Of a DNA stretch of 64,000 bases, positions 6,659-52,307 are shown one piece after another (position 1 is the first letter of the stretch; each line of letters opens with the position of its first letter). The notes under the pieces were generated by a model that was given only the letters and a program-made list of their open reading frames with translations, was not told the origin of the DNA and did no database searches. Made by a program: the position numbers and the translations under genes. The DNA is from an uncultured Gammaproteobacteria bacterium (GTDB lineage Bacteria > Pseudomonadota > Gammaproteobacteria > Steroidobacterales > XN24), in assembly GCA_947259915.1 (NCBI GenBank), contig CAMYOC010000026.1:1-64000 (forward strand), written 5' to 3'.

Positions 6659-8926
<2,268 letters not shown>

Positions 8927-9017: not shown

Positions 9018-9823
9018 CTACTCGAATTCCATCGCCTCGAACACTATTCCTGCGTTCCGCGACGCCAGCTCTTCGAAAGTGTCGAGATCCGAATAGGCCG
9101 ACTGGTCAATCTTGTACGCGTCGTCCAGGGTGCCGCCCTCGTCCAGCAGTTTCTGCACCTCGCCACGCAGAAAGATCAGATAGTCCCTGGTGTATTGGGT
9201 CACGACGTCCACGTTGGTCGGCACGCCGTGACCCGGGATCACGACTTCCGGCTCGAGCGCCAGAAATTGCTCATAGGTCACCAGCCAGCCCTTTGTGTCC
9301 GTATTGTCAAAGATCGGCAGCAAGCGCTGATGAAATGCCATATCACCGGAGATCACCAGCTTTTGCTGCGGCAGCCACACCTGGATATCGCCAGGGCTGT
9401 GACCCGGTCCCAGGTACAGGGCTTCGATCCGGGTGCCACCCAGCTCGATCACGTACTGATCCTCGAAGGTGATGTCGGGCAACACGACTTCCGTACCCTC
9501 GGCCTTGTCGCGGTTGTAGCCTTGCATGCGGTTCAGCAGGCCGTACGCGCCCTCTTCGATTTCAGCTGCTGCGTCGACGTGGGCGATCACCGGCACACCC
9601 TGTTCCTGCCAGTAGTTCGAGCCCAGAGCGGCGTGCCCCTGGCCATACCTGAATTCTCATAAGTCGGGGGTGCCGTCGCACCGATCGACGACCAGACGCC
9701 CGGGATCACTTCGCGTGGCTCGTCGTAAAGCACCGACTCCGGGTACTTGTCGGGGATGCTCTGGTCGGCGGATGCGATGCCGGCGAACAAAAAGGTCACA
9801 AGTGCGGCAGCAAGGTGCTTCAT
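9018..9823 (-). pseudogene. Broken exported metallo-beta-lactamase-fold hydrolase gene (deletion plus frameshift)
   Basis: Two overlapping frames carry two ends of one protein. The 5' part starts at ATG 9823 after a GGGAGA ribosome site, encodes a signal peptide (MKHLAAALVTFLFAGIASA) and runs to PPTYENSG, then drifts out of frame to a stop near 9587. The 3' part continues in another frame as NGQGHAALGSNYWQEQGVPV and keeps the later MBL motifs (GPGHSPGD, SGDMAFHQR, PGHGVPT) to a normal end. About 45-50 residues (the first beta strands) expected between PPTYENSG and NGQGH are absent, with a non-multiple-of-three junction near 9645-9655. At the usual HxHxDH site the frame reads NGQGHA, so the metal site also looks divergent. 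No intact enzyme can be made. Confidence 0.8.
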
Positions 9824-9978
9824 CGGCTGGTCTCCCGGTTTGCCGGCGCGATTATAGCGCCGGCTGCTACGTGGGAACGTAGAACGTGCTGATTCCAATC
9901 GCCATCTTAGATCGCTTTTCCACTGGAACGGTTTGAGCCTGTTCTGCCATGGGAGCGTTAGGGACGCGGAGAACAATA

Positions 9979-10182
9979 CCGGAGAGATAGGCTCGAATCG
10001 CCTTACGGCGATCCTCGGGTCTGCGACCCGCCTCCGCTTCGCTGCGGCGCCCGGAGAGATGACTCGTCGCTTCGCTCCTCGCCCCTCAAGGGGGCCGCTC
10101 GCTCACTTCGTTCGCTGCGCGTTGTCTCGGCCGACTATGTCGGCCTCGGCTCGAACTGGTCGCCCTGACGGGCGACTGAGTT
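9979..10182. repeat. Hairpin-rich array (copy A) with tRNA-Arg 3'-end remnants
   Basis: The 420 bp between the broken MBL gene and tRNA-Arg has no gene. It holds CCGGAGAGAT (9979-9988) and GCGCCCGGAGAGAT (10047-10060), both identical to the 3' end of the neighbouring tRNA-Arg (10249-10262). Between and after them is a chain of small hairpins: ATCGCC/GGCGAT near 10000, GGGTC/GACCC near 10020, CCCC/GGGG near 10085, GCCGAC/GTCGGC near 10135, GTCGCCC/GGGCGAC near 10165. The block 10062-10155 is a diverged copy of the block at 10480-10565. It may be the decayed trace of extra tRNA-Arg copies. Confidence 0.7.
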
Positions 10183-10203
10183 CGAATCCTGAAACTCATC
10201 GCT

Positions 10204-10242
10204 AAATAGAAAAGGCCCACGCAAGGTGGGCCTTTTCTATTT
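10204..10242 (-). terminator. Rho-independent terminator after tRNA-Arg
   Basis: A perfect 17-bp stem (AAATAGAAAAGGCCCAC at 10204-10220 with its complement at 10226-10242, five-base loop) lies directly past the 3' end of tRNA-Arg on the minus strand, and the stem base supplies a U-rich tract on that strand. Confidence 0.85.
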
Positions 10243-10244
10243 AG

Positions 10245-10321
10245 TGGCGCGCCCGGAGAGATTCGAACTCCCGACCGCCTGGTTCGTAGCCAGGTACTCT
10301 ATCCAGCTGAGCTACGGGCGC
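10245..10321 (-). tRNA. tRNA-Arg (anticodon ACG)
   Basis: The reverse strand folds as a complete tRNA of 77 bases: acceptor stem GCGCCCG paired with CGGGCGC, D-arm AGCTCAGCTGGATAGAGT, anticodon stem CCTGG/CCAGG with loop CTACGAA (anticodon ACG, normally modified to ICG to read CGU/CGC/CGA), T-loop TTCGAAT, discriminator G and an encoded CCA. The order csrA, tRNA-Ser(GCT), tRNA-Arg(ACG) is the same as in Escherichia coli (csrA-serV-argV), which supports both calls. Confidence 0.97.
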
Positions 10322-10350
10322 TTTTTAACTTATGACCTGTAAATATATGA

Positions 10351-10441
10351 TGGCGGAGAGGGAGGGATTCGAACCCTCGAAGGGCTTTTAACCCTTACTC
10401 CCTTAGCAGGGGAGCGCTTTCGACCACTCAGCCACCTCTCC
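10351..10441 (-). tRNA. tRNA-Ser (anticodon GCT)
   Basis: A class II tRNA of 91 bases on the reverse strand: acceptor stem GGAGAGG with CCTCTCC, anticodon stem CTCCC/GGGAG with loop CTGCTAA (anticodon GCT, reads AGC/AGU), the long variable arm AAGGGTTAAAAGCCCTT that serine tRNAs need for recognition by seryl-tRNA synthetase, T-loop TTCGAAT, discriminator G and encoded CCA. It lies 29 bp upstream of tRNA-Arg and the two are likely cut from one transcript. Confidence 0.97.
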
Positions 10442-10479
10442 GTTCTGTTCTGTCCTGTTCGTTTCGGCCGGTCGGGATT

Positions 10480-10565
10480 ACTCGTCGCCTGCGGCTCCTC
10501 GCCCTGCGGGCCGGCGTCGCTTCGCGTCGCCGTTGTCTCGGCCGGCAAGCCGGCCTCGGCTCGAA
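10480..10565. repeat. Hairpin-rich repeat (copy B) fused to a truncated tRNA-Ser
   Basis: This 86-bp block shares four segments in order with copy A at 10062-10155: ACTCGTCGC, GCTCCTCGCCC, GTTGTCTCGGCCG and CGGCCTCGGCTCGAA. Between the shared segments are short stems that differ in sequence but keep pairing: GCCGGC/GCCGGC here against GCCGAC/GTCGGC in copy A; GCCC/GGGC here against CCCC/GGGG. It ends exactly on the TCGAA of a tRNA T-loop. Confidence 0.7.
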
Positions 10566-10633
10566 CCCTCGAAGGGCTTTTAACCCTTACTCCCTTAGCA
10601 GGGGAGCGCTTTCGACCACTCAGCCACCTCTCC
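10561..10633 (-). pseudogene. Truncated duplicate of tRNA-Ser(GCT)
   Basis: Positions 10561-10634 are identical over 74 bases to the 5' part of the intact tRNA-Ser 193 bp away: acceptor 5' strand, D-arm, anticodon arm (GCT), variable arm and T-arm 5' strand up to the T-loop TTCGA. The T-arm 3' strand, acceptor 3' strand and CCA are missing, replaced by the hairpin repeat, so it cannot form a normal tRNA. The perfect identity suggests recent duplication or gene conversion. Confidence 0.85.
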
Positions 10634-52029: not shown

Positions 52030-52307
52030 GGGGTCAGCCGCGCAGAGATGACATATTGCCCGGCGACCTGCGGCATGCAGGTGACATCTTCGGAATGGAG
52101 CGGCTGGCTCCCCAAATTATTCTCCGCGCGCGACCGTGATTGGCTCATAAGCCATTGATTCATAACCGGTAACCCCGCTGTCTTAGGTTTCCTGCCCGTA
52201 GACCGGAAGTTTTGCGTCGCCATCTTTCGATGGCTTTGCCTTTGTCAGTCCAGCAGAATATGCACAAATCTGTCTCCCAGCTCAAGGACTTAGCTCTCAC
52301 CCTGACC

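Follow-up and report, generated by a model that had tools for sequence, protein, structure and literature searches.

What are the two related chains of hairpins that flank serine and arginine tRNA genes in the genome of an uncultured gammaproteobacterium? We analyzed a window of 64,000 nt (the whole stretch of DNA studied), in which a sequence-only reading had described two such blocks, sharing four segments and joined to tRNA fragments, as an element without a recognizable name. Both blocks were found at that position on the minus strand, as matches to a covariance model (R1, see below) at 10475-10566 (copy A) and 10057-10156 (copy B), and the four common segments occur in the same order in each (TTCGAGCCGAGGC, GCCGAGACAACG, GGGCGAGGAG and CGACGAGT). 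The element does have a name: both blocks are RtT elements (Rfam RF00391; the 178-bp repeats of Escherichia coli tyrT), here with Ser and Arg as hosts. To our knowledge, RtT has been known for decades at the E. coli tyrT locus and its function is still unsettled. On the minus strand, the locus reads alaS, lysC, csrA, an interrupted tRNA-Ser(GCT) with copy A, an intact tRNA-Ser(GCT), tRNA-Arg(ACG), a terminator-like hairpin, copy B and a 3' piece of tRNA-Arg, with the following features:

10561 to 10633, minus strand: 5' portion of the second tRNA-Ser(GCT), which copy A interrupts behind A58; 73 nt, comprising a 72-nt run identical to the intact tRNA-Ser, plus A58
10479 to 10560, minus strand: RtT core of copy A, four hairpins between A58 and nt 59 of the interrupted tRNA-Ser(GCT); R1 82.1 bits
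Within 10479 to 10560, minus strand: copy A hairpins H1 (GGCCGGC/GCCGGCC), H2, H3 (GCCC-GCA-GGGC) and H4
10465 to 10478, minus strand: 3' flank of copy A; ATCCC equals the tRNA from nt 59, degenerate beyond (GACCGGCC)
10351 to 10441, minus strand: intact tRNA-Ser(GCT); ARAGORN, and Rfam tRNA at 62.9 bits
10245 to 10321, minus strand: intact tRNA-Arg(ACG); ARAGORN, and Rfam tRNA at 64.3 bits
10208 to 10240, minus strand: terminator-like hairpin AAAAGGCCCACC/GGTGGGCCTTTTC in the interval from tRNA-Arg to copy B, as read in the sequence
10151 to 10192, minus strand: 5' arm of copy B, GGATTCGAACTC, an inner hairpin (GTCGCCC/GGGCGAC), then AGTTCGA, likewise as read
10061 to 10150, minus strand: RtT core of copy B (long-H2 class), downstream of tRNA-Arg(ACG); R1 57.8 bits, Rfam RF00391 14.4 bits
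10044 to 10060, minus strand: 3' flank of copy B, ATCTCTCCGGGCG, equal to tRNA-Arg from nt 59 on and diverging after
9979 to 10048, minus strand: putative degenerate, partial third RtT copy with H2-H4-like hairpins, ending in TCGAG-CCT-ATCTCTCCGG, proposed from the sequence alone

The partial third copy was absent from the sequence-only reading, and the R1 search of the window gave no match to it. The 73-nt piece of tRNA-Ser scores 28.1 bits as a tRNA with cmscan (10571-10627), and when the core of copy A is excised ARAGORN calls a tRNA-Ser(gct). Other features of the window include an apparently split metallo-beta-lactamase-like gene at 9018-9976 (minus strand; overlapping frames 9587-9976 and 9018-9596, a frameshift that is either real or an assembly error), a KatG-type catalase-peroxidase with an apparent N-terminal signal sequence at 6659-8887 (minus strand) and a c-di-GMP-I riboswitch at 52165-52250 (minus strand, 77 bits).

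The Rfam model RF00391 matches copy A at 38.6 bits (E 8e-6, over 10462-10604) and copy B at 14.4 bits, both below its cut-off of 45. Relatives retrieved with the window sequence exceed that cut-off (71.5, 64.8, 48.8 and 47.6 bits), and E. coli tyrT contains four matches at 133-138 bits with the same anatomy as the window copies. R1 was built from 26 short-H2 copies ranging from E. coli to Thiohalobacter, including copy A and one E. coli copy, and joins the window copies to the RtT family; it finds copy A at E 3e-21 (a training member) and copy B at E 2e-14 (outside the training set), and the next-best match in the window reaches 15.6 bits. The window elements contain the hairpin chain between a T-loop GTTCGA and AATCC. 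The family to which the window belongs includes Thioalkalivibrio sp. XN8 (the same contig as G004), which makes the organism a gammaproteobacterium. Like the window copies, E. coli RtT has this hairpin order, a GTTCGA start and an GAGTAATCC end, and both carry a tRNA 3' end as flank and have, where copies are in tandem, a unit of about 174-187 nt. They differ in hosts (Tyr in E. coli, Ser and Arg in the window), in that copy A lies inside a tRNA gene without an inverted arm, and in the scores below the Rfam cut-off. The E. coli tyrT repeats had been taken by the sequence-only reading for a different sequence, a view that the Rfam matches here and the E. coli anatomy overturn; an origin by chance or low complexity is ruled out by further copies, synteny and covariation.

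Four hairpins in a row, about 75-100 nt in all, make up the RtT core. Copies A and B share the order GTTCGA-GCCGA-H1-CGAGACAACG-H2-H3-GAG-H4-CGAGT-nATC and are identical in 79 of 104 aligned columns. Their stems differ yet pair, as had been proposed: H1 is GGCCGGC/GCCGGCC in A and GGCCGAC/GTCGGCC in B, and H3 is GCCC/GGGC in A and GCCCC/GGGGC in B. Taken singly, the window copies gain little in folding over shuffles (z about -1); the structural case draws its strength from the comparison among copies. Two-sided changes occur in 16 of 27 pairs of the 26-copy alignment, with none of 500 shuffles as good. They occur in 25 of 26 pairs among 122 distinct copies, where 91% of cells are paired compared with 30-40% when the structure is slid; this set was aligned to the model, hence leans towards it, and a few members are also in the training set. 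Covariation across the class is overwhelming, which bears out the suggested selection on structure; the further copies and the covariation among homologues, for which a search had been advised, are both present. Tandem G.A pairs flank H1 and H4, two helices that are paired in R1 but mostly unpaired in the Rfam structure, and the outer H4 pair alternates between C-G (76) and U-A (37).

RtT copies are found mainly beside tRNA genes. The window genome holds eight R1 copies at E <0.003, each immediately next to a gene for a tRNA or tmRNA that has the same orientation: Ser(GCT), Arg(ACG), Gln(CTG), Ser(CGA), Ser(GGA), Arg(CCG) twice and tmRNA. The tmRNA copy (L092, G000:C24:44376-44474) lies directly behind its gene, with the tmRNA 3' end on both sides. 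R1 matches occur in about a third of a gammaproteobacterial sample (89 of 276 genomes, compared with 18 over the Rfam cut-off), and also in another class of the phylum, chiefly in one family. Eleven pattern matches outside Gammaproteobacteria had no tRNA nearby and were taken as chance. Among 260 distinct copies, 196 follow a same-strand tRNA or tmRNA at a distance of up to 450 nt (median 81 nt), 24 are only upstream of one, 36 have none called and two have one only on the opposite strand. Hosts across the class are Ser, Arg, Gln, Tyr, Lys, Pro, tmRNA, Glu, Val, Asp and Thr. Where copies stand in tandem, unit lengths cluster at 174-187 nt, as in the E. coli repeats. RtT-bearing E. coli genomes have 1 to 9 RtT places (median 2), and therefore copy number changes.

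The boundaries of the core coincide with positions in the host tRNA. The 18 nt after the core match nt 59-76 of the copy's own tRNA at 18 of 18 positions in 102 of 196 copies, while the median against other tRNAs is 10 matches (own versus other, p 4e-24). The TCGAA ends noted earlier are the T-loop TTCGA on the opposite strand, and the reported joints to tRNA fragments proved correct: copy A to 73 nt of tRNA-Ser, with a 3' flank limited to ATCCC, and copy B to ATCTCTCCGGGCG, the 3' end of its own tRNA-Arg. The 5' side varies. In copy B, GGATTCGAACTC is the reverse complement of a T-arm region, close to that of tRNA-Arg, and forms a 12-nt near-complement to the tRNA 3' end; this layout is also seen in relatives and in the Rfam RtT model, and such pairing is above control across the family. 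Copy A has no arm and has the tRNA 5' part in its place. The inverted 5' arm is not explained by a simple insertion model.

In the usual arrangement, the intact tRNA gene is closely followed by a repeat of its 3' end, and the core interrupts the T-loop of that repeat behind A58; in other cases it lies inside an extra full tRNA copy, as copy A does, or follows A21 of a D-loop. Excision between A58 and nt 59 gave an ARAGORN tRNA call in 20 copies, of which seven were dropped for overlap with an intact tRNA, leaving 13 with window copy A included. Several interrupted copies, copy A among them, have broken 3' ends. D-loop cores were found in extra tRNA-Ser copies at G(G)T(C/T)GA^A (L143, L152, L161, L201, L058 and L048), spanning at least four families; in L143 both flanks are exact. 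In L048 the D-loop and T-loop are both filled, and the tRNA joined after removal of both cores (pieces 1-24, 24-75 and 76-93) is identical at 92 of 93 positions to the intact tRNA-Ser(GGA) of the same genome. At the locus from csrA to tRNA-Ser, one relative is empty (G006, 86 nt), whereas the window genome (G000), G005 and G003 have 296-401 nt with one or two copies; G290 also has one or two there. The core occupies TCGA^A-like sites in tRNA and tmRNA loops as a discrete unit, and the filling of two different loops together with presence and absence at one locus argues for past insertion. Two arrays show further arrangements. L102 (G162) has three identical tandem units, each an upstream stretch plus an RtT-cut 5' part of tRNA-Gln(TTG), before one intact tRNA-Gln, and in L068 (Leclercia adecarboxylata, LR590464.1), beside two intact tRNA-Tyr genes of the same array, RtT splits the T-loop of a full tRNA-Tyr gene whose 3' end is perfect.

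Whether the selected fold is RNA or a DNA cruciform had been left as alternatives by the sequence-only reading; selection on the fold stands, and on the choice between the two the evidence is mixed, leaning to DNA. GNA triloops make up 349 of 795 hairpin caps (44%), a share that is 2% in shuffles and zero or 1% in the rRNA of E. coli; GNRA caps account for 7% and UNCG for none. GNA loops on G-C stems form extraordinarily stable DNA minihairpins (PMC4686876). DNA parameters gave a better folding z-score than RNA parameters for 50 of 60 copies. G-U pairs outnumber A-C mismatches (138 versus 58, p 1e-8), an excess that fits a folded strand on the tRNA side, possibly RNA; the ratio in tRNA T-stems is far higher (48:2). 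Tandem G.A motifs are typical of RNA, and one has been mentioned in RtT (PMC7657543). The annotation of rttR in E. coli is that of a small RNA, which begins where tRNA-Tyr ends and runs to the CCACCA of the repeat; in Actinobacillus, RtT RNAs beside tRNA-Asn and tRNA-Lys give Northern signals and are cited as stress-linked (PMC4986893). Of 148 first copies, 55 are separated from their tRNA by a terminator-like site, and the structure behind such sites is kept as well as elsewhere. RNA abundance was accordingly rejected as the keeper of structure, with the reservation that read-through could still occur.

The enzymes and vehicles considered for movement gave little. The window genome has one PF01797 (Y1 transposase) match, and Y1 co-occurs with RtT (OR 3.4, p 1e-4), but this association is weak and barely exceeds the rve control (OR 2.2) in specificity, and 14 of 89 RtT genomes lack Y1, which leaves Y1 a doubtful partner. 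Reverse transcription as a motor was rejected on the absence of RVT_1 from the window genome and of any RVT association with RtT across the sampled genomes. The phage search found no RtT apart from one Salmonella record, and the few plasmid matches are all on non-mobilisable records; with nearly no RtT in either, carriage by phages or plasmids was also set aside. Copy similarity is 0.726 for the same tRNA in related genomes and 0.702 for different tRNAs in one genome, and inheritance is therefore largely vertical. Together with the near absence from phages and plasmids and the lack of a convincing partner enzyme, this argues against frequent movement now.

On balance, we think it somewhat more likely than not that RtT is a structured, non-coding repeat that is specialised to tRNA loops, spreads by exact insertion and yields RNA as a by-product. 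Identity and insertion points are read directly from the copies, while the mode of movement we infer. RtT would insert exactly, without target duplication, and would survive only where an intact tRNA copy remains; it could then be amplified in tandem through the repeated tRNA ends. Its fold may be read by some enzyme, quite possibly as single-stranded DNA, and the RNA known from E. coli and Actinobacillus would then arise as tRNA transcripts are processed, whether or not it is of use. The tRNA-adjacent copies, own-tRNA flanks, tRNA restored on excision, D-loop copies, empty and filled csrA locus, covariation and GNA caps favor this reading; that no mobilising enzyme has been identified, the few phage and plasmid copies, the largely vertical inheritance and the G-U excess count against it. 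A sharper version can be offered tentatively, in which RtT would be a minimal mobile element of tRNA genes, working as single-stranded DNA folded into GNA-capped minihairpins and inserting without target duplication at TCGA^A-like sites in the D- and T-loops of tRNA and tmRNA, with the E. coli rtT RNA as a transcribed by-product.

The same material has been weighed against other origins. One alternative is a functional trailer RNA, released from the primary transcript of a tRNA operon by cleavage at tRNA-like 3' ends and active in trans, for example in the stringent response. It would account for rttR, the stress-linked Actinobacillus signals (PMC4986893), the 138:58 G-U excess, the tandem G.A motifs (including that in PMC7657543) and the largely vertical inheritance, yet we consider it unlikely, though deserving serious attention: structure is equally well kept behind the terminator-like sites of 55 of 148 copies, caps are of the GNA type (44%) and not GNRA (7%) or UNCG (none), DNA-parameter folding is stronger in 50 of 60 copies, and a regulator is not expected inside tRNA genes. 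Recombination or gene conversion between tandem tRNA ends, with no present insertion activity and only ancestral units having moved, fits the tandem units of about 174-187 nt and the match of interrupted copies to their own genome's intact tRNA, as if converted; because RtT starts GGTTCGA, the 5' part of a tRNA would become joined to it by unequal crossover at a T-loop. Exact-ended D-loop copies in several families, one with both loops filled, are hard to obtain by T-loop crossover, and the many tRNA types and tmRNA as hosts also count against such by-products, which we regard as distinctly unlikely.

Two further origins are much less credible. If RtT units were relics of integrases whose attachment sites are tRNA 3' ends, and the flanking 18 nt were the attachment repeat, this would account for the likeness to integration scars of the direct repeat (nt 59 to the 3' end) and of the occurrence at tmRNA. 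The terminator and inverted arm differ per tRNA, so that one unit did not simply hop, and the D-loop is an unusual attachment position for integrases; this origin is very improbable. An intron-like RNA removed from precursors of functional interrupted tRNAs would agree with insertion without target duplication and with the near-perfect tRNA left by double excision in L048, but an intact tRNA copy adjoins or exists elsewhere in the genome where checked, and several interrupted copies, including copy A, have broken 3' ends. On these two grounds we set it aside as very improbable.

Set beside known systems, the preferred reading of RtT as a loop-specialised repeat finds likenesses and differences. 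Actinobacillus pleuropneumoniae Arrc20 and Arrc21 resemble the window copies as RtT next to non-Tyr tRNAs, but in the accessible part of the report they are placed upstream of tRNA-Asn and tRNA-Lys and studied as trans-acting RNAs, with no loop insertion described there (PMC4986893). Short palindromic units of REP/RAYT and IS200/IS605-type elements suggest a possible working mode for RtT. REP/RAYT hairpin units are read as single-stranded DNA; in contrast, no RtT-specific transposase was found, and RtT is tied to tRNA loops. The literature searched, with the primary RtT paper (Boesl and Kersten, 1991) outside our reach, held no account of RtT insertion in tRNA loops, and as far as it shows, loop insertion and DNA-type caps are apparently undescribed.

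These results give RtT an anatomy whose boundaries are exact, supply empty as well as filled sites for comparison, and show hosts across many tRNA types and tmRNA. Annotation of tRNAs near RtT loci can include interrupted genes. The DNA-type hairpin caps give a sharp prediction that separates a mobile DNA from a regulatory RNA, and the exact insertion points make the old question of the nature of RtT testable.
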